Below, piece after piece: positions 36,687 through 64,000 of a DNA stretch of 64,000 nt. Position 1 is the stretch's first letter. Every line of letters starts with the position of its first letter. The DNA is taken from assembly GCA_964036045.1 (NCBI GenBank), contig OZ038381.1, positions 154,398,352-154,462,351 on the forward strand, in the 5' to 3' direction. The position numbers and the translations under genes are program-made. The DNA comes from Eutreptiella sp. 'Long Island Sound 2002' (lineage: Eukaryota > Euglenozoa > Euglenophyceae > Eutreptiales > Eutreptiaceae). Under the pieces are notes generated by a model. The model worked only from the letters and a program-made list of their open reading frames with translations, had not been told where the DNA came from and ran no database searches.

Positions 36687-38830
36687 TCATGCCTCAGGCA
36701 TGACTATACGGTCCTCGTAGAAGAGATACTGGTTGTTTCTATACCACTGGTGCCCGTCAATGACACGGGGCTCGAGACCAGTGCTGAGGGTCTGGAGAAT
36801 TTCTTGATACTCTGACTGATAGGCAGTTAGGCTCCAACCCCCGAGGATTCCAGCAGTCCGCATAGACAGGTCAAGCTGGACATCCATACGCTGGAAAGCC
36901 TCTTTGGCGAGTGCCTCAGAGATCTCACCAATAAGCGCATCGAAGTTGTTGCGCGATATGTAGTCAGACAGTTCATTTTTTATACCAGGGATATGATGGA
37001 CCGTCAGCCTGAACTGGCTCAGGTAAGTCTACCCTCGTTTTAGTTTAGCTTTCTCCGGTGGGGGGCCCTTCCGAAAGGAATTCACCGGTTCCTGGTCACA
37101 GAGCCAGACAATAGGGTTAGATCCCAATAGTCGGGACTGTGATGAGAGCACCAACATACTGGCCAGGAGCTCCTGGTCGTAGGTGCTGTAATTGGAACGC
37201 GCCTGTTTCAATTTCCAGTTCCAATGTCCCAGTGGCACAAGTCCCCATTCACTGGAAGGATAGTCGTGCTTCAGGGAGCCATCACCGTTCAGTCCACTGG
37301 TACGATAATGGCAGTGGTAAGCTCCTGCCATTGGTATATAGTTCCACGCCCCCCTACATCACTGGCATCGGTGATCAGGACTATCTCGCCCTTAGGGCGG
37401 GGTACGCCCAGGCAGTTGGAGGAGGCAATTTTCTTCTTCAACTCCTGGAAACACTCCTCCTCTCTGGCGGTCTACCTCCAGGGAGTAGCTTTCTTGATTA
37501 GGTCAGTGAGAGGGGCAGAGGAGTAGGCAAAATTGTGGATGTGTCGCCTATAGAAGTTACAGGCGCCCACAAAACTCCTCACGTCGTGTAGACCCTTCTT
37601 AGGGTCATCGCGAATCTGCATGTCCTGCAGGGGCTGCATCTTAGACGCGGCTGGTTTCCACCAGCCATACCCCACATCGAAACCCAAATACTCCATCTCC
37701 TCTTTCATGAACTCGCATTTGTCGAGTTTGATTCAGAGATGGTTTTCCTGACAAACAATGAAAAACTCACGGAGGAGAAGGACATGGTCCTCTTGGGTAC
37801 TGGTACCCAAACTAACGTCATCGATGTGGGCCTCCATTTCTGCCCCTCGGGAAATCAACTCCTATACTAGAGGTCTGCGCCTCAATATGTACAAATTTTT
37901 GTTCATCAGTTCTTGTAAGAGTGCCAGGGCATTAGCGACCCCAAAAGGCATGACCTTCCACTTAAACACACGACCCTTAGGGGTTATAAAGGCCAGCAGC
38001 TCCTGAGCTGCGGCTGTTAGGTCAACCTGCCAGAAACCACTGCGTTTGTCCATTTTGGTTTTGTACCGGCATTTAGCAATACGCTCCAGGGTGTTTTCCA
38101 TGTTGGGAATACTCCCTCAGTGGTTTTGGGTTTTCTTGTTGACCTCACCATAGTCAACAACCAGTCCTAGGTCAGTCGATCCTGGTTTAGCAACCAGGAA
38201 GCAGGGACTGCAGTGGTGGGGGTAGTGCCCCTTCTTATATTCCTCAACGAGGCCAGCATCAATACATTCCTGGATCTGGCGTTCGATTTCTTCAACCTGT
38301 TTCAGAGGAGCGGCGTAGGGACGACGCCTCACTCGCGTCCTCTCAAATTCAGGTTTCAGTTTCAGGTCCTTCTGGACCAGTTTTTTACAGGACAGGGGAG
38401 GCGGCAGGGCGCCGAACACCTCCTCATAGGCTAGGCGCAGTTTTTTCAGTCGGGGGTCAAGGTTCAGACTCTCCATTTTCTGCAGGAAATCCTCCTCAGC
38501 ATGGAGGTTGCTCTTACCATGCTCTTTCTTTTTCTGCCGATCAGCCGTTTCGGCAGGTACTGAGCCGTCATCCCACTCAGGGGGAAAATGTTGCCCATAG
38601 TGCAGAGAATACACTACGGGTATCTCAGGGTCAGGTAGCGTGTAGGAATCATTGTCCTCCTCAGACCAGATGGAGGATTTCCAGGTCTGTCTGAGGTATT
38701 GCAGCCGCTCTTGGCGCTCAATACCTTCGGCCTTCAGGTACAACAGCCGTCGGAGTTCCTGACTGTCATGCCCAAACAGTGGCATGTTATTAGAAGCGGG
38801 TCGCGCTAGAGCATCAGGACTCTGAGCCAC
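36687..38830 (-). pseudogene. pol: RT and RNase H of element 3
   Basis: Frames from 38,830 (Pol linker) through RT (KLVQKDLKLKPEFERTRVRR; VVDYGEVNKKTQNH; MDKRSGFWQVDLTAAAQ) into RNase H. The RNase H motif NYSTYDQELLAS keeps the catalytic Glu that element 1 lost. The RT catalytic segment near 37,820-37,860 is interrupted by stops (for example CTATACTAG at 37,861). Order and spacing match element 1. Confidence 0.85.
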
Positions 38831-40486
38831 GGGTTCACCTGAGCAAGTAGCTCCATGTGCAGCACAGGTTTCCCAATAGGGGAAGTAGGTTCTGAGGTTG
38901 ACTCTAGGTCTACCCCTTCCAGCAACAGCTGGGCCAGGAAGGCACTGTGTTTGAGTTCAACACAGCTGGGATCAACAGGAGGGATAGAGCTGGCGATTTC
39001 AGACAGTTGGTCGTCAGCGTCCTCCTTCACAGCAGCAGGTTCCAGATCGCCATCAGGGGATTCACACCCTGTAAGTGTGGCAGCTAGGTGTTCAGGGGAT
39101 CGCTTTTTGAGATCAGAAAGGGTCAAGCCACACACAGGGGTACAGGGTTGAGGGATCCATCGACAATGGATAAGAAAGTGGCCCATTCAGGGGGCTGCAT
39201 ATCTGTGTCTGAGTCCTCAGGCACATAAATGGGACCGTCGGGGAGTTGCACTCTTGCCACAGTCATTCGGGCCAGGAGTCGGCGCCAAAAAGCGTTTTCA
39301 CCTGAACAACCCCAGTCAGCGGTGCACATGACAACCTTTCCTCCCTCATAAGCGATTTTGGTTAGAACCTTCGCGAGCAGGGAGAAGGGAGGGTTAGCAT
39401 ACGCTAGGCCCATTGCTTTCCAGAAGAAACACAAAGCGTTATTCAAATGTGTGGAGCAATACAACTGATGTGCTGTTGTTGGCTCGCGAACAATTCCACC
39501 TGGATCTTATCCAGGGATACCTGAAGGGCCGCGAGTCCATTTTCAAGAACGTGACGGGCCAATTGGTAGTTTTCAGTACGATAGTTAGTCTTGGCTGCGT
39601 AGCGCAGCCCAGACTCTTTTCGTCCTGACAGCTCCAAAGGTACGGAGAAGAGCCCACTGCCAAAGTCGCAGTGTAGAGAATAGGGGCGTTGGAGAGACAA
39701 CATTTTTACCTGGGGGTTTCTTTGTAGGAATTCGGTGCCAATGACGATGTCAAAGGCGTCAGTGTCCAACACTCTGCAGTGTTGGGTCACAGTTTAGTCG
39801 CCAAGACAAATAGTCACATCGACACCCTCCAAGGATTGGATGGTACGCCCATCCCCTACTCTTCTGGCCACTGTCTTAGTTTTCTTGAAAGTCTTTAGCA
39901 GGCGCCGGGCCACTATAAAGAGTGTAGCGCCGGTGTCAAGCAGTGCTCGAAAAATGTTATCCCCGATTTTCACGAGGATCCAGAAAACCAAGTCCTCCTC
40001 TTCAGAGCCGCCCCCCTACTCCTCAGCAGGGAATGTCACATCAACCCCTGCAGCCATGAGGGACTTAGCCATTCAGGCCAGTCGCCTCTTCTTTGAGTTG
40101 GAACCCTCAGGGGGGGCGTTATCCCCCTGTGGGCGCGTTTTGGGGTCAACAACGGCAGGAAAGGGAGAAATAGCGGGCGCCGATGAGCGCCTCTGGGGGT
40201 TGGGGTTTCCACCCTTGCCACCTCCCTTGCCTCCTCCTTTACCACCCTTATCCCCATTCTGGGGAGTTCTGGAGGGTGTTTGTGCTTTCTGGCGTTCAGC
40301 CTCCTGCCGTTTGCGTTTGTCACTCTCACGTTTTTTATGTGACATTCGTCCTCGTAGTGACGACGATTGCCACAGTAACCACAGGTGATGGTACAGCTGA
40401 AATGGTCCTGATGGGTCACTGTTTTCCCATCTTTAGTGTGCTGCTGTCGTTTCGGTTGCAGCATACAACCACTGCGATGGTCGCAG
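38352..40486 (-). repeat. 2,135-bp direct duplication, copy A
   Basis: Nearly identical (about 99% by eye) to 46,089-48,224 and flanks insert 1 on the left. The left edge is GGTTTCAGTTTCAGG; the right edge is GATGGTCGCAG, where copy B continues into TCAGGGGCATG and this copy enters GTAGGTAGGTAGG. Confidence 0.92.
39123..40486 (-). pseudogene. Gag C-terminus, protease and linker of element 3, copy A
   Basis: Minus-strand order: Gag zinc knuckle region up to the duplication edge at 40,486, the UAG at about 40,018, protease with LLDTGATLFIVARRLL, and the linker. A TAA at 39,794-39,796 replaces the Glu codon of LGDET; the same stop is in copy B (47,532-47,534) but not in element 1. Confidence 0.85.
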
Positions 40487-42196
40487 GTAGGTAGGTAGGT
40501 GCACTCGGTCATGGAGAGGCGCCTCATGGTTCCCCCTGGCGTCGCCCGTGTGACGAACAGGAAGAGGCTCCGCGCGTGAAGAGGGGAGGCGGCTTACTTC
40601 CCGCTAGACCTGACTGTTGGCCCCCAACAAGGCGGCCCCGGGCAACGCCGGGAGGGCTGATCGCCGCCAGCGTGACATGCTTGTCTCGCCGGTAGGGTTT
40701 GCCCCCGTGCTTGCGCACGTCCCCTCCTTTGGGCGGAACCCTAGGGGTTCACCGGACTTCCTGGCGTATCCCGTTCCCAAGGCATGCATGCACGTTTTTG
40801 GTACTAGGGTTCCGAGGTGCTTGGGTGTCGCACGCTCCGCCTCGAGTCCCAAAGCAGCGCAGGCCTTAGGATGCAGCCTTACCCCCGGTCTCCGGATCTC
40901 GTTTGGCCGGGTCAGCTGCATGGCACGGGCTGCCTCACTGCCCGGGCTGTGGGCACTGGGTTTCCTACTGTTGTGCGGCGTTTGTGTTTGGGTCCGGTTG
41001 GCGGTTGGGTGTGGGTTTGGTTAACCCCGCCAGTCCTGGCTGGGGTCTTGGGTGGGTGTGTTTGGGCACGGTTTGTGGCGTTGTCCCTCTAGTGTCGGCT
41101 GTTTGTGGTGTTCGTGGTTGGGCTTCGGTTTCGGCCTGCTTTTGGGACGTGTGTGGTTTCGTGGGCGCCCGGCTTGCCCCCCGCCGTTTCCGGTTCCAGC
41201 GTGCAGTGTGGGCGTGTGTGTTGGGCCCGGGTCTCGGCTGGGTTGTCGGGGTGTGTTTTTTGCGCTTTTGTTTTTTCTTTTTTTTTTTTCCGGGCTTTGT
41301 CGTCCCTGTCCCTCCATCCCCTTTCTTTCGGGCTGGGCTGGTGGCTTTCCTTTTTTTTTTTTCGTTTCGGTGTCCCTTTTCCCCGTGGGCCGCTGTTACT
41401 GGCTTGGTGTTGCCAGGTTTGGGGTGGGTGGTCCCCCTGTGCCTCTGTGGGGGTCCTGTCTTCGGTGCCTTCTGGGGGGGGGTTTGGCCGCCTGTGGTGG
41501 TGTTGGTGGGCGGTTTGGCGGCTGTGGGCTGTTTTCGTGCCTTTTCCCCCTCCCCCTCCTTTTTTTTTGGGGGGGGGGGGGGGGCTTGCCTGTTCCTCCC
41601 TCTGCCTTCCCTGGGCTGGCGCACGCACTGGCCTGCATTCAGTGTTGTCTTCCGGGCTGCTGTCTTCAGTTGCGTTCTGTTTGGCCGCGTTCCGGCCCCA
41701 TGGGTCGGGTGGGCTATGTACACGGTGGCCTCGGCGCCCCTTCTTGCCGGGTTTGGTCCTGGCTCTGCCGGCTGGGCGGCTGCGCCAGGCGGGTGCTTGT
41801 GGTTTTGGGTTACGGGGCTGGGGTTGTTCGTGTCCTTTCCCCTCTGCGGTGCCGGCTGTAATCTTCTGGGTGGTCCGCCACCGTTGTCGCCTGGCGCGCT
41901 GTGGCCCCGTGTGTGGCCTGCGGTGCTGGTGTGTGGCGTGCTGGCGCGGCGCCTTCCCGGTTGTGCGGTCGCTGGCTTCGGTTAGTCCCTCAGGTTAGGG
42001 TCAGTTGTGTCGTGCTGTGCCGCTCTGTGCCGCGTCGCGTCGCGTCGTGCTGTGGTGCGTTGCACTGTGGCGCGCTGTGGTGCGGTGTGCCGTGGTCTCG
42101 CGTGGTGCCGCGGTGGGTCAGTGGAGGTCAGCCTGGCCTGTGTCGTGGTGCGGAGTGCAGGCCGGAGTGTGGCTGGCTGGTGGTTGGGGGGTGCGG

Positions 42197-42952
42197 TTAG
42201 GTGTGGGTGGCTCGCTGGGTCCGTGCTGTGGGGGCTTGGGCGTGCCGCTCGGGCTGGTGGGTCGGGTAGGTCTTCGGGAAATTCCGCTGAATGATCACGC
42301 TGTCCTTGGGGCGTGCACACTGACTCTCACCCATGGACTCAATCTTCACCGGGCCTCGCAGACAGGCAGGTGTGTTCAGGGTGTAGGAAAGACGTTCCTT
42401 CTCCAAGGCAGACAAACAGAAATCAGGAGTCGGACGGTGGAGGTGGCTTCCGAACGCCGTTTGAGTGGCGAAAGGCTTGCACTGCTGCTCGGCTGCACTG
42501 GCAGGGACATGAGGGTCCGGGTCGGTGCCGCCGGCAGGCATGAGCTCATACTTCAGGGTCAGGGGGATGTCCATATCTCCGGTGCTGAACTGCAGGGGTC
42601 CGGGGCACCGGTAGTAATCTTGGCACTTCCAGTCTTCACGGCGCTCGGAGAAGGCCTTGAAGGGGGCACCGTCCAGCAGCACCAAGGCCTCCGCGATCAC
42701 AGCCTTCCACTTCCCCTTGCGGCGCTCGAAATTCATCATGGACGGGATCGGCGTGCCGCCGCAGTGCCATTCCTCCACTGGACGCAACAGGTTGGTGACG
42801 GACGCCATCACGGACGTGAGACCAGCTGAGATCAAGCCCCCGGCCGTCAATCCAAGTGCATAGCAATACTCTGCGTCGAACCGCGACGGTAACGCAGCCC
42901 GGCCCTCATAGCCAAAAGCGTGGTCGCGTGACAGTCCGTGGGGTTGCCCTCC
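42197..42952 (-). pseudogene. captured C-terminal exon of a PPi-dependent phosphofructokinase
   Basis: The frame encodes HAFGYEGRAALPSRFDAEYC and then TNLLRPVEEWHCGGTPIPSM, MNFERRKGKW, LDGAPFKAF and CPGPLQF. These are hallmark blocks of the long-type diphosphate-fructose-6-phosphate phosphotransferase, including the GYEGR fructose-6-phosphate-binding motif. The enzyme makes fructose-1,6-bisphosphate using PPi. A plausible AG splice acceptor (CCCCCAG) lies at 42,953-42,954, placing the exon start at 42,952. About 230 codons are open without disruption, ending with SVIIQRNFPKTYPT before a short tail and stop. The N-terminal catalytic half is absent from the window, so this is a gene fragment rather than a working gene. 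Confidence 0.75.
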
Positions 42953-43455
42953 CTGGGGGCCTGTGCCTTGGTCCCGTGTCCTCTGGGGGTTTCGGTCCCT
43001 AGTTGTGGGTGCCGCGGCTGTGCCTTCGTCCTCTTCCGGTGCCTGTGAGGTGGCCCTTGTGGTGGCCGGGGTCGTCGCCTGGCGGTGAGGGCGTGGTGGT
43101 GCACCGTGCGGCGGCGTTCCCTGCGGCTTCCTCTGTGGGTGTGGCCCGTTCTCTCCGTGTAGGTGTGCCCTCCATTCTCCGTGTGGTTTCCGGTGGCCGG
43201 TGGGCGTGCGCTGGTGTGCTCCGCATGGCGTCCGATGTTTGCTTCGGTGGTGTGTGTTGGGGTGTTTGGTGGGGCTGGGGCGGCGCTGGCCCCCCTGTCG
43301 TGGTGTGCCCTTCCTGGGTGTGGGTCGTGGTGTCTGCCGTGGTGCCCTTTTCCTCCGTGTCTTGGTCCCCGCTCCCGCCCCTTCCTGGTTCTTGGGTGGT
43401 TTCCTGCCCCCATGTGGTGTCGCTTCCGGCGTCCTGTCCCTGCGAGTGCCTGTCC

Positions 43456-46083
43456 TCACTTGGGGACCTTCCGTGCCCTCTTGCCTGAGTGCTCCTTGGT
43501 GCCCCTTGCCCTTCCCTTGCCCTTGTCCTGCCCCTTCCTGGTGTGGTGGTGGCGGGAGGGGCGCGGTGGGGAGGGGGCGCCGGCGGCCCAGGCCTGGGGG
43601 TGGGTGGCCTGGAGCCACTGGCGGAGGGCTTGGGGGGTGTAGGGGGGGCGGAGGCCCTGGACCGCATCGCGGAGGAGGGCCTCCCATGCCGCTTGCGGCA
43701 TGATGGCCTCCGGGGCGGCCTCGTTGGGGTTTGCGGGGGTGCGGGTGCGCACCTCCTCAAAGGTATGTACCATGTGCACCCCTTCGTGCCTTCCCGCTCC
43801 TCCGGCCCACTTCACCCAGCGGCGGAGTTCCTGCAGAGCGGGGGGAGACCACCAGGCGAGGTGGGCGGGGGCCCGGGGGGGGGAGGGGTCCGTGCCCGTG
43901 GTCGTGTAGCGGCGGGGGGAGGACGTGGACCTGCGGTGGTGGCGGGGGTGGCGGTGCCTGGGGGAGCGGGAGCGGCGGCGGCGGGGGCTGGGGGTGGAGG
44001 ACGGGTACGGGCGGAGGGGGGAGCGGGAGGGGGAGGTGGACATGGGGCGGCGGTGGCGCGCTCGGTGGCGTCCGGGGGAGCGGGAGTGGTGGTGGTGTGG
44101 GCTGGGGGTGGTGGATGGGTACGGGTGGCGGGGGGAACGGGGAGCCCGGCGGGGCGTGTGGGGGGAGGGGGAGGTGGACGTGGGGCGGCAGTGGCGTGCC
44201 TGGCTGCGTCGGGGGGAGCGGGAGTGGTGGTGGCGGGGGCTGGGGGTGGGGGTCTTGTTTGGCCGGTGGGGGGAGGGGGAGGCGGACATGGGGCGGCGGT
44301 GGCGCTCGTGGTGGTGCCCGGGGGAGCGGGAGCGACGGGAGCGGGGTCCCAGGGGGACGTGGTGGCACCTGGGGGACCGGGAGCGGCGGGAGCGGGTGGT
44401 TGAGGCGCGGTGGGAGTGTGGGCGCCGTGGGCGAGTGTGCCGTGCGGGGGGGGAGCAGGAGCGCAGCCGTTTGCGGGACCGGGCCTCATCGCTGAAGTCG
44501 GGCCAGTCTGGAGACGTCGGCGGCCCCTGGGGGGCCTCGCGCGGTGCTGCCTGGTACTGGGGGGGGGGGGGGAGGTCCCCCGTCGTCCATGGATCCGCCA
44601 CGTAGGGGTGTGGTGGCGGCAGTGGATGGTGGTATGGGTCGAGTGGCTGTCCTTGGCGGGGTTGGGCCCAGAAGGCCCCTTCGGCAATCGGATGGTGGCC
44701 GGGGGGGTACGGATACGGTTCCTGGTACGGGGGTGGTGGCTGGTACGGGGGGGGTGGCCCCTGGTGGTGGTAGGTGGGGTATGTGGGTGGAGCGCTTGGT
44801 GGCTGCCATCCCGTCCGCTGGTGCTGTTCGTGCACGGGGGGTTGTGGCCCGGTGGGGTAGGGCGGTGGGCAGTGGTAGTGGTGGGGGTGGTGTTGGTAGT
44901 GGTGGTGGTGGGGCCGCTCGTGGTGGTGGTGTGGGTAGTGGTGGGGTTGGTGTTGCGGGTATGGCCCATGGACCCCTTGTGGGGTTTCTGGTCCCCCTTG
45001 TGGGGGTGGGGGGTTGGGCATCGTGGGCAGTCGCCGGGGCTGCACTATGTGGTGGGCAGGGGGGGCGGGTTGGGGGCCGGGCTTGACGGTGACGGCGGTC
45101 GAGGGGTCCCATGTCCCTGGGTCGGTTTGGCCGGCGGTGGTGGTGGTTTGTGGGGGATGGATGACGGGGCGCTTGGTGACGGGGATGGGGACGAGGGCTT
45201 GGACGGGGTCGTGCTGGGTTGCCGTCTCTGCGGTTGTGGTGGGTGCCGGCGGGAGGGGGGCGCGGGTTGCGGTGGGTGGGGGGTCTTGGCTTGGGCGAGG
45301 GTCCGGGCGGGGGTGGTGTCGGGTGGGTTTGTGTCGTTGCGTCTGTGGTGTTGTGTGTGCTCGCGTGGGCGCCGGCTTGGGGTTGGGGTCGGGTTTGGGG
45401 TTGGGGTCCGGTTTGGGTTTGGGGTCGGGTTTGGGTTTGGGGTCCGGTTCCAGGTTGAGGAGTACCTCCGTCCGGAGGTGTGAGGGCGCCGATGTCGGGT
45501 CGGGGGTCGTCCCGGTGTGTTGCCGGGGTGCCGGAGTTGCCTGTGTGGGGGTTGGGGGGTCGGTGCGTGCGGCCGCGGCTTTGGCTTTCGCCGTGGCCTT
45601 GAGGATGAGGGCGGCGGGGAGGGGGGGGTCGGAGGATGAGGTGGAGGAGGTGGACGAGGCTGAGGATGAGGAGGAGGTGGTGGACGCGGGTTGGGCTGTG
45701 ATGCGGGCGGGCTTGTGGGCGGCGGCTTCTGCTGCGGCCACGGCGGGGAGGATGGAGGGCATGTCCTCGGGCTGTAGGTTGGGGGCGGGCGGCTGGGGGG
45801 GCCCGGTCGTGACCTGGCGGCCCGGCGGGCCGATCTGGTCGGCAGCGGCGGGGGAGGGAGGCGCGGGGCTGTGGCCTTCTCCTTCTGGGCTCGGCTGGGC
45901 CCGGGTCCTGCAATGTGCGAGGTCGTGTGGGTTGGCGTCCGCGGGGGGGAACAGTTCGCGTGGGCTGCATTCAGGGGTCGGGGGGGGTGGGCCTGGGTCC
46001 TCTGGGGTGTGTGTGGGGGGCGTGGGCGGGCCACTGGGTGGGGTGGGCGTGCCGCGGGGCGCGGGGCTCCCCTCGGCGGGTGT
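43456..46083 (-). CDS. Pro/His/RS-rich protein with MPQAAWEA domain, insert 1
   Basis: The frame is open from the insert edge (46,083) to a stop at 43,456; the first ATG is at 45,762 (MPSILPAVAAAEAAA), but protein-like sequence (ECSPRELFPPADANPHDLAH) precedes it. In order from the ATG: Ser/Thr-rich stretch, Lys-Pro repeat (PKPKPDPKPKPDPN), His/Pro/Tyr-rich region, then an RS-like domain (about residues 425-620, many RSRSP units), and a C-terminal region with LQELRRWVKWAGG and MPQAAWEALLRDA, ending in a basic tail. The C-terminal domain is shared with insert 3. Very high GC keeps all frames open, so this frame is preferred only because of that shared domain and RS composition. RS domains suggest a nuclear RNA-associated role; function unknown. 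Confidence 0.5.
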   Translation of the reverse strand, partial: TPAEGSPAPRGTPTPPSGPPTPPTHTPEDPGPPPPTPECSPRELFPPADANPHDLAHCRTRAQPSPEGEGHSPAPPSPAAADQIGPPGRQVTTGPPQPPAPNLQPEDMPSILPAVAAAEAAAHKPARITAQPASTTSSSSSASSTSSTSSSDPPLPAALILKATAKAKAAAARTDPPTPTQATPAPRQHTGTTPDPTSAPSHLRTEVLLNLEPDPKPKPDPKPKPDPNPKPDPNPKPAPTRAHTTPQTQRHKPTRHHPRPDPRPSQDPPPTATRAPLPPAPTTTAETATQHDPVQALVPIPVTKRPVIHPPQTTTTAGQTDPGTWDPSTAVTVKPGPQPAPPAHHIVQPRRLPTMPNPPPPQGGPETPQGVHGPYPQHQPHHYPHHHHERPHHHHYQHHPHHYHCPPPYPTGPQPPVHEQHQRTGWQPPSAPPTYPTYHHQGPPPPYQPPPPYQEPYPYPPGHHPIAEGAFWAQPRQGQPLDPYHHPLPPPHPYVADPWTTGDLPPPPQYQAAPREAPQGPPTSPDWPDFSDEARSRKRLRSCSPPARHTRPRRPHSHRASTTRSRRSRSPRCHHVPLGPRSRRSRSPGHHHERHRRPMSASPSPHRPNKTPTPSPRHHHSRSPRRSQARHCRPTSTSPSPHTPRRAPRSPRHPYPSTTPSPHHHHSRSPGRHRARHRRPMSTSPSRSPLRPYPSSTPSPRRRRSRSPRHRHPRHHRRSTSSPRRYTTTGTDPSPPRAPAHLAWWSPPALQELRRWVKWAGGAGRHEGVHMVHTFEEVRTRTPANPNEAAPEAIMPQAAWEALLRDAVQGLRPPYTPQALRQWLQATHPQAWAAGAPSPPRPSRHHHTRKGQDKGKGRARGTKEHSGKRARKVPK

Positions 46084-46088
46084 GTGTG

Positions 46089-48224
46089 GGTTTCAGTTTC
46101 AGGTCCTTCTGGACCAGTTTTTTACAGGACAGGGGAGGCGGCAGGGCGCCGAACACCTCCTCATAGGTTAGGCGCAGTTTTTTCAGTCGGGGGTCAAGGT
46201 TCAGACTCTCCATTTTCTGCAGGAAATCCTCCTCAGCATGGAGGTTGCTCCTACCATGCTCTTTCCTTTTCTGCCGATCAGCCGTTTCGGCAGGTACTGA
46301 GCCGTCATCCCAATCAGGGGGAAAATGTTGCCCATAGTGCAGAGAGTACACTACGGGTATCTCAGGGTCAGGTAGCGTGTAGGAATCATCGTCCTCCTCA
46401 GACCAGATGGAGGATTTCCAGGTCTGTCTGAGGTATTGCAGCCGCTCTTGGCGCTCAATACCTTCGGCCTTCAGGTACAACAGCCGTCGGAGTTCCTGAC
46501 TGTCATGCCCAAACAGTGGCATGTTATTAGAAGCGGGCCGCGCTAGAGCATCAGGACTCTGAGCCACGGGTTCACCTGAGCAAGTATGCTGCATGTGCAG
46601 CACAGGTTTCCCAATAGGGGAAGCAGGTTCTGAGGTTGACTCTAGGTCTACCCCTTCCAGCAACAGCTGGGTTAGGAAGGCACTGTGTTTGAGTTCAACA
46701 CAGCTGGGAACAACAGGAGGGATAGAGCTGGCGATTTCAGACAGTTGGTCGTCAGCGTCCTCCTTCACAGCAGCAGGTTCCAGATCGCCATCAGGGGATT
46801 CACACCCTGTAAGTGTGGCAGCTAGGTGCTCAGGGGATCGTTTTTTGAGATTAGAAAGGGTCAAGCCACACACAGGGGTACAGGGTTGAGGGATCCATCG
46901 ACAATGGATAAGAAAGTGGCCCATTCAGGGGCCTGCATATCTGTGTCTGAGTCCTCAGGCACATAAATGGGACCGTCGGGGAGTTGCACTCTTGCCACAG
47001 TCATTCGGGCCAGGAGTCGGCGCCAAAAAGCGTTTTCACCTGAACAACCCCAGTCAGCGGTGCACATGACAACCTCTCCTCCCTCATAAGCGATTTTGGT
47101 TAGAACCTTCGCGAGCAGGGAGAAGGGAGGGTTAGCATACGCTAGGCCCATTGCTTTCCAGAAGAAACACAAAGCGTTATTCAAATGTGTCGAGCAATAC
47201 AACTGATGTGCTGTTGTTGGCTCGCGAACAATTCCACCTGTATCTTATCCAGGGATACCTGAAGGGCCGCGAGTCCATTTTCAAGAACGTGACGGGCCAA
47301 TTGGTAGTTTTCAGTACGATAGTTAGTCTTGGCTGCGTAGCGCAGCCCAGACTCTTTTCGTCCTGACAGCTCCAAAGGTACGGAGAAGAGCCCACTGCCA
47401 AAGTCGCAGTGTAGAGAATAGGGGCGTTGGAGAGACAACATTTTTACCTGGGGGTTTCTTTGTAGGAATTCGGTGCCAATGACGATGTCAAAGGCGTCAG
47501 TGTCCAACACTCTGCAGTGTTGGGTCACAGTTTAGTCGCCAAGACAAATAGTCACATCGACACCCTCCAAGGATTGAATGGTACGCCCATCCCCTACTCT
47601 TCTGGCCACTGTCTTAGTTTTCTTGAAAGTCTTTAGCAGGCGCCGGGCCACTATAAAGAGTGTAGCGCCGGTGTCAAGCAGTGCTCGAAACATTTTATCC
47701 CCGATTTTCACGAGGATCCAGAAAACCAAGTCCTCCTCTTCAGAGCCGCCCCCCTACTCCTCAGCAGGGAATGTCACATCAACCCCTGCAGCCATGAGGG
47801 ACTTAGCCATTCAGGCCAGTCGCCTCTTCTTTGAGTTGGAACGCTCAGGGGGGGCGTTATCCCCCTGTGGGCGCGTTTTGGGGTCAACAACGGCAGGAAA
47901 GGGAGAAATAGCGGGCGCCGATGAGCGCCTCTGGGGGTTGGGGTTTCCACCCTTGCCACCTCCCTTGCCTCCTCCTTTACCACCCTTATCCCCATTCTGG
48001 GGAGTTCTGGAGGGTGTTTGTGCTTTCTGGCGTTCAGCCTCCTGCCGTTTGCGTTTGTCACTCTCACGTTTTTTATGTGACATTCGTCCTCGTAGTGACG
48101 ACGATTGCCACAGTAACCACAGGTGATGGTACAGCTGAAATGGTCCTGATGGGTCACTGTTTTCCCATCTTTAGTGTGCTGCTGTCGTTTCGGTTGCAGC
48201 ATACAACCACTGCGATGGTCGCAG
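46089..48224 (-). repeat. 2,136-bp direct duplication, copy B
   Basis: The second copy of 38,352-40,486, flanking insert 1 on the right. It covers the Pol linker, protease and Gag C-terminus and carries the same TAA in the protease (47,532-47,534) and the same Gag-Pol UAG. One net indel and a few substitutions distinguish the copies. Confidence 0.92.
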
Positions 48225-52704: not shown

Positions 52705-52766
52705 ATTGTTTGCTTGGTTGGCCTTGTGTACTTCTCAGAGTCGGTTCGAAGGGTTCTCAAGGGTCG

Positions 52767-52778
52767 CCTTTGCTACCA
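52767..52778 (-). other. primer binding site of element 3, initiator tRNA-Met
   Basis: On the minus strand TGGTAGCAAAGG, matching 11 of 12 bases of the expected initiator tRNA-Met complement and starting with the last LTR base. It confirms the site assigned in element 1. Confidence 0.8.
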
Positions 52779-54740: not shown

Positions 54741-54757
54741 GTAGGACTACTTCATCT

Positions 54758-55020: not shown

Positions 55021-55125
55021 CTACAAGCGAACGAAGTGGATGTGCACCAAGTGGATGCTCCCTTGTTCAATTGAAGTAAATTCAATTCTACTTGTTCAAT
55101 TGGCCATGTTGAAAGTCAATTGAAC

Positions 55126-56230
55126 ACACCTGGGATCTCTTCGGCGGTGTCTTGTGCATGCTTTGCCTTTTTCGATTTCTTCTCGACCACCTCATCTTCT
55201 TCATTGCGTCGACGCTTCTTCACCTTTTTCTGGGACTTGCGATTGGAGGGGTCGTTGGAGTGTGGAGCTTGGAGCATGATTGACTCCGGATCTTGGGGCT
55301 TGATAGACTCCGCATCGATGGGCAGTGGTTGGACATCACTCAAGGGCCTCCACCATCCACTCTTCGCAAGGGGTCGCTTGTTGCGTTTTTCCCATTGGCT
55401 CACTCCGGCTTTCCGTTCTTTGATGTGTTCCGCCAATGCCGCAAGAATGCGTAGTTCCCAACTTGGCTTCGACAATAGTGTTGCTTCGAGATCAACAAGG
55501 TCAACGAGGGTTGGCGCTTCGCGAGGGTGCTCAAGGAGGATTTGCACGCCCCGCGGCGAAACCGCCAAATCTGACACGACCCAATGCGGGTCCGTGGCAT
55601 CCGGAAGGGCGGCGGCGGCGCTCCTATTGGTCTCCTGCAGGGAGGCGGCGTACGCTGCCATTGGGCTTGGGGCTCCATGACCTCCATGACCTCCACGTGG
55701 TGTCCTCAAATGCGGGGCCAACATAACACCTTGGATCCGGCCTTGGTACCGGTGTGCGCACTCTTCTTGGTACCACGTTCGCGGCACACTCGCGAATTCA
55801 AACCCCCAGGGCTTCGTGGCCCGTGGCTGCCTGCAGGTGTGTGTTTCCCGAGGCTATGGTGGTCCCAAGCGCGATATATGGCGCACCATACATCGACGCC
55901 TGGGTTTTTGTACCCGTTTAGTGTAAATATTGTTTTGAGGGATGCTTCCTTCTCTTCAAGTGGGGCCCATGTTGGCCCCCACGGTCCGTAGGCGTTGACC
56001 ATTTTTTTATAACATCGTTGGTAGATAAGGAGAAGCGTGAGATGCGAGCCATGTGGTATATGGACAATTGCGGTGTTCTGATGCGGCCATTGGGCCCGTC
56101 GCATTGCACTTGTGAGTGGGAAGGCAAAAGGTGGCTTACCCATGAAATTTGGTTGCGGCGCTGGTGGTAGTTGCCATACCCACATGCATGAAACATCGCC
56201 ATACGCACACGCACGAAGCATCCCCACACA
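55126..56230 (-). pseudogene. middle exon of transposon-like gene, copy D
   Basis: Protein-like sequence (KKMVNAYGPWGPTWAPLEEK; NPGVDVWCAIYRAWDHHSLG) followed by a Ser/Pro region and a strong basic NLS (KSQKKVKKRRRNEEDEVVEKK) near the exon end, with a GTGTGT donor at about 55,128. A 1-base deletion at about 55,798 shifts the frame; the duplicate at 63,385-63,964 lacks this deletion and is open. No known domain is recognised. Confidence 0.55.
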
Positions 56231-56444
56231 CCTGCTGCCGTTGTGGAGACTCCGCGGACCCCAATAGTGCTTGGGCTAGCACTTGCCCAAGCACGTCCAT
56301 CATGCCCCTTCGAAGAGAGAACGCAATAGCTTAAAGTGTATATCCTACACCCACTCACTCCTCCACTTCATCCTCCGATTCATTATTATCTGCATTGAAC
56401 CACGCATATACAGCATCCACAATTTTTTGGTTCGTGCATTGCGC

Positions 56445-57911
56445 CTACCGCGTCTCGTTGCGTGCAATAATCGGAACAAAAAAATAGAGAAATATATATT
56501 GAAGAGTTTGCTTCATTGCCAAACTCTCTCTACGAAAACGATCCGCTACACCACGAGGGAGTGTAGTATCAACATGCGTTGAGCCTCCGCGGTTAGTCAT
56601 GGTTAGAAAAATGCTTTTCAACAGGTGGTTAAGGGACTTGGCACTATCTTGACAAAATATGCCAAGCCCAAACTTACCTAGTTTAGGGAGTAGTGTGGGG
56701 CACACAAACTGAAAAAAATACAAATAGTGCGATGCACTTGTAGGAACAATATGGGTTCGAAAGTTAGCAACCACACGTTGACAATGATGAATGGCTTCAT
56801 CATTTTTCCATGTGCTATATAAGTGGCATAGGAGCCAACACATGTCCTCACCACTCTTGTCGGCACGAGTGCCAACTGTACCAAGCCATTGTGCAATAAG
56901 AGGCCATGCATGTAGCATGAGCCTCCATGTACACTCACCAGTTGGCTTGGGGGTCTTGCCTAAGGACCCCCGTACTCTACACCTTTTCAAATTTTTGTTG
57001 ATAGCAATGCCCTTACTATCATGATAGTTCTCAACAGAATCCTCTATATATGTACAAATTAAACAACCTATGACCATGAGGCCATGGAGGATACATTGTA
57101 CAAATCGCCAACGCTCCAAACGAATGAGTGGTGCCCTCATACAACCACGCCGTTGCATACAAGGACCACCACCCGTTCGGTATGTGGCTTCCGCGGCATT
57201 GGTACGCCACATGGCATCGGTGATGAACTTACGTTGGGCCCTTTGCCAAATGGCAAATGCATATACACTAGCGATCTCCCAATATTCCGATAATCCCAAC
57301 CATCGCCGCAACCACGGCTTGTCGTCCCCAAATCAGACTTCGCAATGCTCCTTCTTCCAGAACCACTCAAGTGTTGCACCGTCAATGAGAGCTTGCAACA
57401 ACTAGAAAGAGAAGAAGGTGCATTGTAAGTTGTAATGTTCAATCGAACGAGTTGAAAGTTCAATTCGTCAATTGAACAATTTGATGTGAATAACCACGAA
57501 GGACACATTGTAACACATACCTTGATATTTGCTTCCCAAAGGTTGGCAAGGATTGTAGCATCCTTGTCATCGCAATATGCCACACCAATGATGAATTGGT
57601 GTTCCACGTTCCGGGCCAATTGGCCCCAATTACCAAATGTTATGCATAATTGGGACCATTGAGTGCCCGCAACGGGGAATGCGTCCGCACGGACAATAAG
57701 GGTCAAAGGCATGCAAGTATCCCATGCACTATGTAACACCTTATGTCGTTGCATAAATTTGACAACCTCTAGGATACTCCATGATATCCCAATAGCTCCG
57801 TCTTCTGTAGTAAGTTTTGGAGCCTCTAGCCGCATTTCACTACACAATTCCCTCCACTTATCGTTGACGGACTTCAACGAAGGTAAGCGTGGAGACCATT
57901 GTACACGGAGG
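56445..57911 (-). pseudogene. transposon-like gene, first visible exons
   Basis: Exon 57,911-57,521 encodes a conserved-looking block (TLIVRADAFPVAGTQWSQLC, IGVAYCDDKDATILANLWEA). A clean GT...AG intron occupies 57,520-57,402 (119 nt, phase 0). The next exon runs to a stop at 56,445 (KPWLRRWLGLSEYWEIASVY; MCWLLCHLYSTWKNDEAIHH; FGLGIFCQDSAKSLNHLLKS). A TGA at about 57,331 stands where Trp is expected (EV*FGDDKPW), so the copy is dead. The architecture suggests a large DNA-transposon protein, but I cannot name the family. The upstream end is cut by insert 3. Confidence 0.55.
57402..57520 (-). other. spliceosomal intron
   Basis: Donor CAAG|GTATGTG and acceptor TTTCTAG|TTG on the minus strand, 119 nt, joining two open frames (NLWEANIK and LLQALIDGATLEW) in phase. 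It contains AT-rich, stop-rich sequence. Confidence 0.75.
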
Positions 57912-58492
57912 TAGGTAGGTAGGTATCTTCGGGAGCTCGGGATGCCTCCTTTGACATTGCAGGAAGAAGGTCTTACCAAGAGGACGTCCTGTCCCTCCCA
58001 CTGCCCTATGTCAGGTGCCTCTTGAGCCGCTCCCGCATGTGCTTGGGAAGGCATTGTCGCGGCCACCCGGTCCATGTGTCCCAGGTGGGAGGGTGTCCCC
58101 ACATGTGTCCATGGGTAGGGCCACATGCCCCCTCCTTTGGGCGGCAGCTCTGGGGGGCTGCCCAGCCGTGTGGAGTATCTCTCACCACAAGGGGTATTGC
58201 TCCCGCTTGTCTACGGTACGACCGCCTCACCCTTGTTGCTTGAGTTGCGGGGCCACTCTGCTTGGCAGGTGACACCCTCCTGGACTGTGTACCGGCTCGC
58301 CTGTCACCGGTTGCTTCCATGGCTCCGGGTGACGTTTGCCATGGTCCCCGATGCAGCCTGGCCGGGCTCGGACCAGTGGCCTTGGAGTACCGCTCCTGCC
58401 ACTGGCCCGGTGGGTCGGCTGGGTCGCCCCAGTGCGTCCGACCCATGGGGTATTGGTTCTTTCCTGTCCCTCGGCCGCCCTACGTGTGTGCA

Positions 58493-58685
58493 GTGTCCTG
58501 GGCCGTTGGGCTCCTGTTCACCGGTGTGCCCGCGCGGTTTGCTGTGGTGCGTCTGCGGTGTCCTGGGCCAGCTGGCTCCTGTTCACCGGTGTGCTCGCTC
58601 GGTGTGTTGTGTTGCATGTGCGGTGTCCTGGGCCACTGGGCTCCTGTTCACCGGTGTGCGTGCTGTGTGCGGTGCGCGTGTGCCA
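58493..58685. repeat. 65-bp tandem repeat, three units
   Basis: GTGTCCTGGGCC starts units at 58,493, 58,558 and 58,623; each contains GGCTCCTGTTCACCGGTGTG. It lies inside insert 3. Confidence 0.85.
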
Positions 58686-58722
58686 TGGGTGGTTGTGTCC
58701 CTCTTCTTCCCCCCCTAATTTT

Positions 58723-58799
58723 CGTTTTTTTTTTTTCTGTTTTTTTTTTTTTTTTTTTTCTGGAAAAAAAAAAAAGAAAAAGAAAAAACAAAAAAGAGG
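58723..58799. repeat. T-run / A-run inverted homopolymers
   Basis: About 35 T (interrupted by CTG) is followed after CTGG by about 30 A-rich bases, able to form a long A-T hairpin in otherwise GC-rich DNA. Homopolymer lengths here are likely unreliable. Confidence 0.8.
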
Positions 58800-58949
58800 A
58801 AAGCAGGGGCGCGCGTACACTGCAGGCACAGGCATGGGCAGCTGGTGCGGCGGTGCTATAGCGTTGTGTCCTCTGGCGTGTGTCGTCGGTGCTGTGGCGG
58901 CGGTCGCGCCCCAGTGGTGCGGCTCGCGTGTCCTGATGTACACGGATAT

Positions 58950-59325
58950 GGGTCAGGGTGGGTTTGGTTAGGTGTCTCTTTGCTTCTGGTGCTGGCTGGT
59001 TAGGCGACTGTGTGGGCTGTGGCTGTGGGCTGTGCCTACGTATTTCCCTCAGCGGGCCTGGTTTGGAGTCAAGGGTTGACGGTTTCGGGATGTGGCTCGG
59101 GTTTGATTTGTGTTGGGGCTTCGGCTCGGTTAGGCTTGGGTCAGGGTGGGTTTGGTGAGGTGTCTCTTTGCTTCTGGTGCTGGCTGGTTAGGCGGCTGTG
59201 TGGGCTGTGGGTGTGGGCTGTGGTTACGTTGTTCCCTCGGCGGGTTTGGTTAGGAGTCAAGGGTTAGCGGTTTCGGGGTGTGGCTCGGGTTTGATTTGTG
59301 CTTGAGTTCTGGCTCGGTTAGGCGG
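58950..59325. repeat. about 189-bp tandem duplication
   Basis: GGGTCAGGGTGGGTTTGGT begins copies at 58,950 and 59,139, and both run through GTTTCGGG(A/G)TGTGGCTCGG to a GGCTCGGTTAGGC end. The copies differ at scattered positions. Confidence 0.85.
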
Positions 59326-60012
59326 TTGCGCGGGGCCGGGCGTGTGGGTAGCGGCGTCCACGGGGTCGTGTGCCCGAGGCGAGTGCGGGGTGGTGCGTGC
59401 GGGCCGGCCGTTGGCCGGTGGCCTCACTGGGAGTCCCACACGGAGGGGTCGACGGGCGTGCCGGGGGCGTACGCAGCAATGCAGGTTGGGCAGCAGCGGG
59501 CGCACGTGCAGGGCGTCGGCGTGCTCGATGGGGACCTCACTGAGGACCGAGGGGTTGGCGGCAAGCAGTATGCGATGCCCGGGAGGGGTGGCGGCGAGGA
59601 GCGGGAGGATGTCCGCGGCCCGCGACGTGGGGGTGAACACGACGTGGGCCGGGTGCGGCCCCGGGAGCGGTGTTGGGGGGGGCGGGACCACAGGACGGCG
59701 GTCTACTGTGAGGCGATGCTGTGGCGCAGTGTGTGGGGCCGGGTGCTGGGCGGCGTGGGGACGTGTGGCGGGAGGGGGGGGGGGCGAGGCGGTGGCGTGG
59801 GAGGGGGCACGGCGGAGGAGTGACGTCAGTGACGTGTGTGTCGTGCTGAGGGTGGGGAGGAGCCCACGGTATCGGGTCCGGGTTCGGCGCCTTTGGGCGT
59901 AGTGGTGCTCGTTGTCGTGTGCGTTGGCTTCCTTCGGCGTCCGGTTCGTTTGGTGACTTCTGGGCGGGGCCTGGCGTGGCGCCCCGTGGTGGTGGTGTGC
60001 TGGGTAACGGGG

Positions 60013-62530
60013 TTAGATGGCGGCGCCGCTGGCCGGGGGGTCTGGCGCGTCGTGTTGTGTGGCGCGCAGGGCTCCTGGGGTGCTGTGGGTGTCGCCGGTG
60101 TCGGTGCGCTGACGCTTGTGGGGTGGTGAGGGGGTGTGTGCGTGCGGGGCTGGGCTTTGGGTGATGTCCCACAGGCGGATGCCGTCTCGCCGCGTTTCCT
60201 GGAGGGTCTCCCGCAGGCGCCTGAGGACGTACGGGTGGTCCTGGGGCGCGGGGAGGTTGCGGGGGTGGACTCCCAGGGGGTGGAGCGCATCGGCCAGCAT
60301 GGCTTCCCATGCGGCCTGCGGCATCCACCCCCCCGCCGGCCGGAGGCGGCCGTTCTCCACCGACCCCTTGCGGGGCCGATGGACCAGGCCCTCGAGGGAG
60401 GGCTCTCCCCGGGCCCACTTCCGCAGCTCCCAGAGCTGCGTGTGGGTCCAGCGCTGCCACCACTGTTCCTGGGCGGGCCTGCGGTCGTGGGCGGAGGAGT
60501 GGGCGTGGGTGGGTGTGACGGGGTCGTGGGGACCGGCGGCGGCGGCGGGCCTGGGGGATTCCTCGTAGTCCTGTTCCGTGGGGGTGCGTGGGGAGTGGGG
60601 GTGCACGCGGACGTGGACCCGCGGGTGGGCGCGTACGGTCTCCGCCTCGGGGTTGGGCGGGGATTCGCGGCGGCGGCGGTAGTGGGGCATGCGTTGCATG
60701 TGGGCTGTCATCGGGGGCCGGTAGGGGGGCGAGGGCGCTGCTGGTGGACCCTGGCGTTGTTCTGGCTTGGTCGGGGGCGGTCCGTGGGCCTGGGGTGCGG
60801 GCTTTGGGAGGTGGTGGGACGAGGCGCGTCGCGCTTCGGCCGCGGCGCGCTCCGCCATGAAGGTGGTGGCGGTGGCGTCGGTGACGGTGGAGGGGCGCCG
60901 CGCTGGGCGCTGCTGCCTTCGGGCCTGGGACGGCTGGGGCCGGATGTCGTAGAGGACATCCTCGGGGGGCCGGGCTCGCGTTGCCGTCGTGGCGCCAGGT
61001 TTGGGCTTGGGTTTGGGCTTGGCTGCGGGTCGCCGTTTGGCGGCGGTCTTGGGCTTCGCCTGGGTCGTGGGCGTGGGCTTCGCCGGGGCGTGGGCTTTGG
61101 CGGCGGCGGGGCTGCTCGCGGTGGGGGCGGGTTTGGAGGCCCGTTTGGGAGGTGTCCCCCGCGGCCTGGGGGGTGGAGTGCTGGACAAGGACGTGGTGGT
61201 GGTGGTGGATGAGGTGGTCCTGGTGGTGGAGGTTGTGGAGTCGGAGGCGAAGGAGAGGGCCGCGGGAGACGGCGGAGGGTCCCGGGCCTCGGGGGCGGGC
61301 GTATGATGCTGGGTCCTGTAAGTAGCGAGAACGAGGGTGCAGGTTCGGGCATCGGGCGTGTGCGCGCGTTTTCCCTGGTGATCCGTGCGTGCTGGTGCTG
61401 GCGTGGCGGCGTTGTCCTGGCCGCGCGGGCACGTGGGTTACCCGGGGGGTGGCCATCTCTGCTCCAGGACGTGGGGGTGTGTTTGCTGGAGGTAGTCGAG
61501 GGTCCGGAAGAAGCATCGCTGGATGCCGGGCATGTCCTCCTCTGTGAGGTGGGGGTAGTTTTGGGTGGGGGTGTGGGGGCCCGGCCATAGCAGCGCCATG
61601 AGGCGGGCTGCCACCATGTACGGGCATAGTTGTGGGGTGGTGGGGCGTGGGGGGGTGGGTCCCTCGCGGTTTCGGGGGGCTTCCCTCTGCTGGGGGCGCA
61701 GCGTGACCACCCACACCCATCGGTCCGTGGGGATCCCTCAGGTCCGTTGGGTCCACTTGGCGAGGCAATACATTGCCCTACCAAGGCCCTGGCAGCCGCT
61801 GCGGATGGAGAGCAGCGTGTCCAGGGATGCGGGTTCCCACGTGCCGCAGATGTGGGGGTCGTCCGGGTCGTCCCCCCTGGCGTACGTGTCGGGGCCTGGG
61901 TTGTGTGGGGGGGGGGTGTAGTCGGCGGGGAGGAGGGAGTCGGTGCCGTGTACCACCCAGTGGTCTGTGGGTGCGTCGTAGGTGGTGGTGGAGAGGGTGT
62001 AGTGCAGATTGTACATGAGGGTCATGTACGTGGAGGGGGCTGGCTGCTGCTCGTCGGGGGTGGGGATGTCCCCCGGGACGTGGTGCCGGAAGTTGCTTAG
62101 GGAGGCCATCCGGGCTACCCATGTTTCCCGCTCCCACTCTTTGGTGCTGTCCGGGGTGGCGTCGGGTGGGGGGTGGGCCATGTTGGGCTCGCGGTAGCGG
62201 GTGCGGCCCCGGGTGCTGTCCCGCTCCGGCAGGGGGTGTCCGACCAGGTGTCGCCCCCAGTCGATGGGGGGCACCCAGATCCGGCTCCCCGTGGGGGGCG
62301 GGCTCTCGTCGTCTGGGGTGGCGCGTGGGGGGCGCTCGTGTCGGGCGACGTGGAGGAAGGCGTCGAAGAGGAAGTCTCTGACGCCTTCCCCCAGGGTGGC
62401 CGCCTGGACCAGGGTGGCCGCCCGGATGGGGGTGCTGGTGCCGGAGGTGCGGAGGTACAGCAAGACGTCCTGTTCCCCGAGTCCCCGGAGGTGCTGCCGT
62501 CCCGCTGCGTGGTTGTGTAGGGCGTAGGGT
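60013..62530 (-). CDS. Pro-rich protein with MPQAAWEA domain, insert 3
   Basis: Protein-like sequence begins upstream of 62,530 and includes EQDVLLYLRTSGTSTPIRAA, GVRDFLFDAFLHVARHERPP, STYMTLMYNLHYTLSTTTYD and GRAMYCLAKWTQRT. An in-frame TGA (61,738) may be a mutated Arg codon; the frame continues through LCPYMVAARLMALLWPGP and EEDMPGIQRCFFRTLDYLQQ. A likely intron (GTAACC ... CTTACAG, about 61,434-61,317) joins in frame to a Ser/Thr then Lys/Pro/Ala-rich segment. The C-terminus has LWELRKWARGEPSLEG and GGWMPQAAWEAMLADALHPL, ending at a stop at 60,013. The C-terminal domain matches insert 1; the N-terminal part has no counterpart there. Function unknown. Confidence 0.45.
61317..61434 (-). other. 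candidate intron in the insert 3 gene
   Basis: On the minus strand CCCCCCGG|GTAACC to CTACTTACAG|GACCCAGC. Removing it joins WPPPG to TQHHTPAPEARD in frame and skips a TAA. Without transcript data this is a prediction. Confidence 0.4.
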
Positions 62531-62699
62531 TCGGCCGGTGCGGCGACTGGTGGTGCGGGGTGTGATGGGGGGGGTGGTGTGGGTTGGGGGGGGTGGTCGT
62601 CGCTGTCGTGCGTGGGGTCCGGTGATGGGGTCTCTTGTGGCGGTCGCGGGAGGGGGGATTCGCGGTGGCGTGTGTCGGCGGGGGCATTGACGTCGATTG

Positions 62700-63290
62700 G
62701 CTGGTGCTGGCTGCCGCGTGTTGTGTCCGTGGCCTGGTCTCGGGGGGGGGGGCGGGGGGGGGTGGTGCGGGGGTGGCGCTGTTGGTGGTGGGGGGGGCGG
62801 GGGTGGGTGTTGCGCTGGCTGGGGGTCTGGGCGTCCCTGTGGGTCGTGTGGTTGTTGCGTGTGTGCGCCGTGTGGCCCTTGCGTTCTTGACTGGTTTTGG
62901 TGCCGGGGTGTAGGTGGGAGGCGGCCGCATGAGCGTCCGGGTGGGGCTGTGGTCCGTATGTAATGGGTGGCTGCTGGTGGATGGTGCTCGCTGGTATGGG
63001 GTGTGGGTGGGGGGGCTGCTGGTGGTGGTGGGGTGGGGGGGGCGGGGGTGGGTGTTGTGCCGGCTGGGGGTCCGGGCGTCCCTGTGGGTCGTGTGGGTGT
63101 TGTGTGTGTGCGCTGTGTGGCCCTTGCGGTTCTTGACTGGTTGCGGTGCCGGGGTCGGGTGGGAGGCGACCGCATGAGCCCCCGGGTGGGGCTGTGGTCC
63201 GTATGTGACCGGTGGCTGCTGGTGGATGGTGCTCGCTGGTATAGGGTGTGGGTGGGAGGGCTGTTGGTGGTGGTGGGCCGCTCCTACTAG
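62700..63290. repeat. 245-bp tandem repeat, about 2.4 units
   Basis: CGCATGAGC(G/C)(T/C)CCGGGTGGGG marks units at 62,926 and 63,171; the preceding partial unit (about 62,780-62,920) shares GTCCCTGTGGGTCGTGTGG and CTTGACTGGTT. It lies close to the right end of insert 3, as the 212-bp repeat does in insert 2. Confidence 0.8.
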
Positions 63291-63384
63291 GCCCTGGTGT
63301 TGCTGGTGTGCGTGCGCGGCTCCTCGCGGGTCCATGGGGGTGTACCGTGGCTCGTATGTCGTGGGCCCGTGTAGCGGGGGCGGC

Positions 63385-63964
63385 GGTGCTCAAGGAGGAT
63401 TTGCACGCCCCGCGGCGAAACCGCCAAATCTGACACGACCCAATGCGGGTCCGTGGCATCCGGAAGGGCGGCGGCGGCGCTCCTATTGGTCTCCTGCAGG
63501 GAGGCGGCGTACGCTGCCATTGGGCTTGGGGCTCCATGACCTCCATGACCTCCACGTGGTGTCCTCAAATGCGGGGCCAACATAACACCTTGGATCCGGC
63601 CTTGGTACCGGTGTGCGCACTCTTCTTGGTACCACGTTCGCGGCACACTCGCGAATTCAAGACCCCCAGGGCTTTGTGGCCCGTGGCTGCCTGCAGGTGT
63701 GTGTTTCCCGAGGCTATGGTGGTCCCAAGCGCGATATATGGCGCACCATACATCGACGCCTGGGTTTTTGTACCCGTTTAGTGTAAATATTGTTTTGAGG
63801 GATGCTTCCTTCTCTTCAAGTGGGGCCCACGTTGGCCCCCACGGTCCGTAGGCGTTGACCATTTTTTTATAACATCGTTGGTAGATAAGGAGAAGCGTGA
63901 GATGCGAGCCATGTGGTATATGGACAATTGCGGTGTTCTGATGCGGCCATTGGGCCCGTCGCAT
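63385..63964 (-). CDS. middle exon of transposon-like gene, copy E (partial)
   Basis: A continuous frame from the window edge through KKMVNAYGPWGPTWAPLEEK, VPRTWYQEECAHRYQGRIQG and DPHWVVSDLAVSPRGVQILL, where insert 3 interrupts it (63,384). The frame then runs on by chance into insert sequence to about 63,287. It is the less damaged duplicate of the exon at 55,126-56,230. Confidence 0.55.
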
Positions 63965-64000
63965 TGCACTTGTGAGTGGGAAGGCAAAAGGTGGCTTACC
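63385..64000 (-). repeat. direct duplication flanking insert 3, right copy E
   Basis: The counterpart of 55,526-56,141 at an offset of 7,859 bp. It continues past the window end. The few differences include the base missing from copy D, so E keeps the reading frame. Confidence 0.9.

Follow-up and report, generated by a model that had tools for sequence, protein, structure and literature searches.

Kilobase-scale target duplications around 5'-truncated LINE insertions in the euglenophyte Eutreptiella

Three inserts and their duplicated targets

The window analysed here is a 64,000-nucleotide stretch of the genome of Eutreptiella sp. 'Long Island Sound 2002' (assembly GCA_964036045.1, contig OZ038381.1, positions 154,398,352 to 154,462,351) and sits on a 180-Mb contig, here C4, of an assembly of 2.28 Gb. 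It holds three GC-rich inserts (GC 0.69, 0.74 and 0.69 for inserts 1, 2 and 3), each bordered by kilobase-scale direct copies of its target, which we interpret as insertions of 5'-truncated long interspersed elements (LINEs). Insert 1 (40486..46088, minus strand), a truncated LINE of family F1, ends on the left (3') in a (CCTA)n tail and on the right (5') at its truncation point, and its target duplication occupies 38352..40485 on the left and 46089..48224 on the right; comparison of the window with itself by blastn aligned 38352-40486 to 46089-48224 with 98.9% identity, 23 mismatches and 1 gap. Insert 2 (48789..50546, minus strand), of family F2, is truncated within its own 212-bp tandem array and carries an (ACCTCAA)n 3' tail at the left. 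Its left target copy (47808..48788) overlaps the right copy of the first duplication and matches its right copy (50547..51527) at 99.9% identity with 1 mismatch. Insert 3 (57910..63384, minus strand), a 5'-truncated LINE of family F3 with a (CCTA)n 3' tail at its left end, follows a left copy at 55526..57909; its right copy begins at 63385 and is visible for 616 bp (63385..64000) before the window ends and cuts the match (55526-56140 against 63385-64000, 99.5% identity). Base-by-base reading of the junctions gave duplications of 2,134, 981 and 2,384 bp, respectively, and chance is ruled out as their source because the matches are so long. Self-comparison and junction analysis agree with the initial annotation, which had reported three GC-rich inserts between kilobase-scale direct duplications, its coordinates proving accurate to 2 bases or fewer.

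Inserts 1 and 2 interrupt a Ty3-type long terminal repeat (LTR) retrotransposon (31672..53189, minus strand), an inverted relative, 81-91% identical, of a second such element at 10972-22291 that encodes RVT_1 and RNase H domains in its open reading frame (ORF). The second element spans both target regions with neither a LINE nor a kilobase-scale duplication (11644-13910 against 52816-50547 at 81%; 12929-14842 against 48789-46870 at 88%) and therefore serves as an empty-site relative. Its alignment through the two targets bears out the claim that removing an insert together with one duplicate restores a colinear target. The two retrotransposons form an inverted pair; the LTRs of the first are ~714 bp long and 97% alike, and the second lacks part of its far LTR, near 53189. 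An 11-bp minisatellite (CCTGTCGCCTC and related units) forms two arrays ~2 kb apart, at 26781-27493 and 29445-29883.

The inserts belong to dispersed LINE or LINE-like families

Each of the three inserts belongs to a repeat family dispersed across the genome, which rules out the foreign filler that had been among the proposed explanations. Only the best candidates were scored per family, so copy numbers are lower bounds: at least 27 for F1, 28 for F3 and 40 for F2, window copies included, at ~95-99% identity. Insert 1 is matched over nearly its whole length at 95% identity or better in at least 21 places, and insert 3 at 97-100% in at least 22, their own places included. All three inserts lie on the minus strand with the 5' end cut off, and at the left junction each bears a microsatellite tail, GGTAGGTAGG in F1 and F3 and GGTTTGAGGTTTGA in F2; tails, shared orientation and family membership are all additions to the initial annotation. 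At 18 of 18 other loci inspected (9 F1, 9 F3), the tail again stood at the left end, and common sequence ran on past the right ends of the window copies, which are therefore truncation points; among these loci only the copies on contigs C21 and C7 were traced further. A self-contained 5-kb element is ruled out by the same longer copies. Read on the minus strand, the window copies are thus complete at the 3' end, where they carry a simple tail, and cut short at the 5' end, which is the anatomy of a LINE insertion. The families lack LTRs, keep a constant 3' end that bears a simple tail, are truncated to varying extents at the 5' end and have target duplications of 6 to 2,384 bp.

The long copies (loci L021, L022, L114 and L115, covering the C21 and C7 copies) reveal the coding capacity. 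The F1 copy on C21 encodes an ORF of 1,737 amino acids with a reverse transcriptase domain (PF00078, RVT_1; E 6.8e-16), and the F3 copy on C7 one of 1,727 amino acids with RVT_1 (E 1.7e-15) and Exo_endo_phos (PF03372; E 3.3e-7); Pfam made no call of an APE-type endonuclease in F1. Among PDB sequences the F1 ORF2 found five matches, four named LINE-1 ORF2 protein, the best match included, and one named RNA-directed DNA polymerase. An APE-type endonuclease in F1 is nevertheless indicated by a protein 97% identical to F1 ORF2 (P0001), which aligns to the F3-like protein P0005 from residue 11 to residue 1728 at 50% identity. The protein clusters list 758 members for the F1 protein and 469 for the F3-like one, counts of ambiguous meaning in that the same rows also give one contig. 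ORF2 reaches ~1,000 amino acids beyond the reverse transcriptase, a region with no domain above the Pfam cut-off. Residues resembling an RNase H motif, a domain that follows the reverse transcriptase in LINEs of the I-like group, were noticed by eye, with no support from Pfam or PDB sequences. The C7 copy is ~17.8 kb long. On C21 the GC-rich sequence runs on for 23.3 kb or more, no end having been met; ~211-bp repeats form an array in the outer part, and more than one element may lie end to end there. Both copies are unusually large for LINEs, and a literature search on the largest known LINE brought up nothing relevant. The F1 and F3 inserts, then, are 5'-truncated insertions of LINEs, that is, of non-LTR retrotransposons, and F2 is a LINE or LINE-mobilised sequence as judged from its anatomy.

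Tandem repeats with units of 212 bp (49660-50547), 188 bp (58949-59323) and 245 bp (62757-63277) occur within the LINE 3' regions, and the copy number of the 212-bp array differs among F2 copies. Within the long 3' region of the F1 insert, a differing segment at 42280-42940, inside a minus-strand ORF of 496 amino acids with no Pfam match, is possibly captured sequence.

As LINEs are abundant in this genome, the arrangement might be thought to have arisen by later recombination between LINE copies, or by a LINE landing in a tandem duplication that already existed. After recombination, however, the duplicates should be bounded on their outer sides by LINE sequence, and the outer left ends in the window adjoin target sequence; had a tandem repeat been there first, every insertion would need to have struck the unit boundary exactly. 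We regard both routes as extremely improbable.

Timing of the duplications

Gaps apart, the duplicates differ at 23 of 2,136 positions for insert 1 (1.1%), 1 of 981 for insert 2 (0.1%) and 2 of 617 for insert 3 (0.3%), and the inserts diverge from the majority base of their family by 1.92% (F1), 0.68% (F2) and 0.75% (F3); one misoriented row, L009 (51%), was ignored here, although it remains within the F1 column counts. Duplicate divergence in the window therefore ranks as element divergence does (F1 > F3 > F2), an order that is as expected if insertion and duplication were simultaneous. From the divergence of the duplicates (1.1% versus 0.1%) we infer that insert 1 arrived first and that insert 2 landed later, inside its right-hand duplicate.

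Insertions elsewhere in the genome

The 5' end was checked in 27 copies outside the window, of which 19 were resolved. Left out were C3:124.23, with a tandem-repeat flank; C1:123.25; C2:154.06 and C17:43.09, with 5' ends outside the fetched piece; L026 and L029, which show no truncation there; L027, in which the array exceeds the locus; and the F1 copy on C21, with its 5' end beyond 23 kb. Candidates L087 and L091 were not included. The first batch comprised F2 loci and copies with alignments that stopped short in the family searches, and the C7 copy was the one long copy traced to its end. The second was drawn from 38 F3 3' ends chosen regardless of their 5' ends: 11 of the 38 had non-element sequence at 2.2 kb, nine of these were fetched and eight resolved, giving four short duplications, one each of 97, 169 and 536 bp, and one insertion with none. 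The percentages below are rough because of how the batches and the C7 copy were chosen.

Ordinary short duplications of 6-17 bp accompany 10 of the 19 resolved insertions. They were read by eye, those of 6 bp (C1:92.648) and ~8 bp (C9:49.128) being weak, and two of the ten hold extra sequence at the 5' junction (21 bp and ~110-120 bp). Three insertions have intermediate duplications (55, 97 and 169 bp), and five have long ones (536, 572, 877, 889 and 1,590 bp), located on contigs C3, C4, C5, C10 and C19 and spread over all three families. Duplications above 500 bp thus make up 5/19 (95% interval 9-51%) and those above 50 bp 8/19 (20-67%), the same families yielding both the 6-17 bp and the >500 bp class.

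These five further places bear on assembly error, in which overlapping contig ends or two haplotypes would have been placed in series around a repeat. In favour of such an error, the repeats are long and GC-rich, three cases fall within 26 kb, and the evidence comes from the assembly alone. Both junctions nevertheless carry LINE hallmarks, and the long duplications recur on C3, C5, C10 and C19 and elsewhere on C4, in three families. Haplotype errors would also produce one typical divergence, whereas the copies of duplications above 500 bp differ by 0 to 3.5%, ranked with element age in the window. Assembly error is accordingly disfavoured: it is very improbable as an account of the long duplications and unlikely for the window itself.

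Junction signatures and integration

In all ten duplications of at least 97 bp, the window's three included, the junction between tail and target reads A/GG (the slash marks the junction); in the window the left duplicate copies end in A, and the GG that follows is the tail's own or common to both. The same signature was recognised by eye in 8 of the 10 short-duplication copies. Since A/GG occurs in both the long and the short class, the first nick is probably the same for both outcomes, which differ in the position of the upstream target end. At the 5' junction, element and upstream target overlap by microhomology in 8/8 duplications longer than 500 bp (4, 1, 2, 2, 2, 4, 3 and 2 nt, three of them in the window); the sum of 20 nt is somewhat above chance (P 5e-5 to 0.03 at a per-base match chance of 0.25-0.40).

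We conclude, with a probability of about 85%, that the long duplications are an insertion outcome of 5'-truncated large LINEs integrating by target-primed reverse transcription. In detail, the events are best read as integration primed at the target, with the second strand often primed far upstream. The endonuclease would nick a single strand, an A usually preceding the cut, and the microsatellite tail of the RNA would be copied from the 3' end so exposed. Early arrest of cDNA synthesis would give the 5' truncation that is observed, and the end of the cDNA would then pair briefly with the target strand before joining the other strand. Joining 6-17 bp away, as suggested for about half of the resolved cases, would leave an ordinary duplication; joining 55 to ~2,400 bp upstream, as in most of the others, would place the whole interval on both sides of the element, where the duplicates are found. 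The likeliest route to the distant outcome may be an upstream nick or gap, pre-existing or made by the host, followed by strand displacement and fill-in.

Several observations weigh against this account. Two short-duplication cases have no A/GG; the 169- and 97-bp cases have no 5' overlap and instead hold 19 and 4 unassigned nucleotides; and one insertion of the 19 (C4:81.477) has no duplication within 3.3 kb. The agreement in rank between duplicates and elements is one of three points only, and the ratio of their divergences falls short of 2:1, the value predicted with the family majority as source; differences in source or unequal rates could explain this. F2 is placed with the LINEs by its anatomy. 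The second-strand step is inferred, not visible in the sequence, and the junctions in the window are known from the assembly.

The main alternative for the last steps would be template switching or break-induced replication, in which a sister chromatid or an upstream replication fork would supply the template primed by the cDNA end, replication would then copy the target interval, and no second nick would be needed. The 1-4 nt of microhomology in 8/8 duplications above 500 bp and the wide range of lengths would fit. Short microhomology is, however, usual at the ends of ordinary 5'-truncated LINEs, which counts against this alternative. Joining to the sister should also produce deletions, and only 1 of 19 insertions had no duplication, though this count was made with no empty-site comparison for deletions. 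In favour of this alternative, bridging of sister chromatids by cDNA has been proposed in an account of a 22.6-Mb duplication linked to human L1 (PMC7058536, in part); against it, a section of PMC2912911 treats 5' microhomology as a standard measure. On balance we consider template switching rather unlikely, and second-strand priming upstream on the target remains our preferred account.

Host repair and comparison with known systems

The closest parallel comes from de novo human L1 insertions in XPD-, XPC- and XPA-deficient cells, with duplications of 2 bp to ~6.8 kb according to the tables of Servant et al. (PMC5223499). The Eutreptiella insertions resemble these in combining 5'-truncated copies with duplications of a few base pairs to several kilobases, the same size range. 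In complemented XPD cells (n=17) the same tables give seven insertions with duplications of 3-16 bp, two with 1.5-1.6 kb, one with neither and seven with deletions, and the authors propose that nucleotide excision repair (NER) factors help to position the second nick. A section heading of PMC5717806 states that CSA-deficient cells have no large duplications. Repair was lost experimentally in the human cells; here, unlike there, the insertions are inherited and only 1/19 had no duplication. The Eutreptiella families are also different ones, with microsatellite tails in place of the poly(A) of human L1.

The likeness of the length spectrum to that of NER-deficient cells (PMC5223499, Tables 1, 3 and 4) raises the question of whether the host has lost or weakened NER, a natural counterpart of the L1 phenotype of XPA, XPC or XPD deficiency. 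Against this, the genome has a Rad4/XPC domain in two places (best E 9.4e-11), XPA_C in two (E 1.6e-9 for the better match, which is on a small contig, and E 2.3e-6 for the one on C8) and a weak, partial match to Rad10/ERCC1 in one place, just over the cut-off (E 9.3e-4, 43/115 positions), the three profiles having no match in any of 14 control genomes. Since XPC, ERCC1 and XPA domains are encoded, gross loss of those genes is not the reason, and we think loss or weakening of NER an unlikely cause. The Rad4/XPC matches (G000:C8:65203273-65203527 and G000:C15:44364183-44364482) fall within open frames 860 and 1,123 amino acids long, which suggests long exons in these host genes.

Among LINEs that insert at a ribosomal DNA site, a long target duplication of 126 bp, fixed in length and confined to one site, is known; the Eutreptiella duplications differ from it in their variable length and dispersed sites. 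With ordinary Alu and L1 insertions they have in common the first-strand nick, the tail and the short-duplication class, and they differ in the long class. Kilobase-scale duplications might nonetheless be a general outcome of LINE integration, equally common in other genomes and overlooked by catalogues. Sections of PMC2912911 support this in that the human and chimpanzee analysis took only duplications of 5-30 bp and urged study of longer ones in vivo, citing 5'-truncated L1 copies with extremely long duplications in HeLa cells (Gilbert et al.), once deemed a peculiarity of those cells. The insertions described here share that tie between truncation and length, although HeLa is a cultured line. 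Conversely, Alu duplications called from long reads of human sperm span 8-18 nt with no long class, in the part of PMC12633430 that describes them. The duplication survey covers one genome; a general, overlooked outcome is possible but doubtful. The duplications linked to L1 in cancer (PMC7058536, in part) likewise have both ends of a direct duplication linked by a single L1 event, but they are somatic and of megabase scale, in contrast to the recurrent 0.5-2.4 kb seen here. Kilobase-scale LINE duplications in natural genomes were not found in a partial literature search, too limited to establish their absence in print, and excerpts of PMC2996970, PMC8090852 and PMC8219666 report none.

The view of the initial annotation that kilobase-scale target duplications are exceptional is thus supported, while its proposal that a new type of element duplicates long targets goes too far: LINEs are already known, and the ones found here also make duplications of 6-17 bp. 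What stands of that proposal, and what seems unusual, is the frequency with which second-strand completion occurs hundreds to thousands of bases away.

Implications

Our best reading is that LINEs integrating in a natural genome often complete the second strand at a long distance, an outcome previously known mainly from cultured human cells. We tentatively suggest, as a possibility well short of a conclusion, that this lineage naturally uncouples completion of LINE insertion from the first cut, and that a quarter to a half of its insertions close by priming at a distant top-strand end, through a property of the element (very large LINEs) or of the host. If so, each such event would make a tandem duplication of host DNA, and an insertion could be removed without a scar by recombination between the kilobase-long repeats, much as solo LTRs arise. 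Second-strand completion in LINEs is poorly understood; repair-deficient human cells hinted that control of its distance is a separate activity, and the occurrence of very long duplications in vivo was left as an open question in the relevant section of PMC2912911. With short and long outcomes coexisting among inherited insertions of the same families, this genome offers many natural events for testing how that distance is controlled. LINE insertion would here directly generate small tandem duplications, and the insertions themselves may be reversible.

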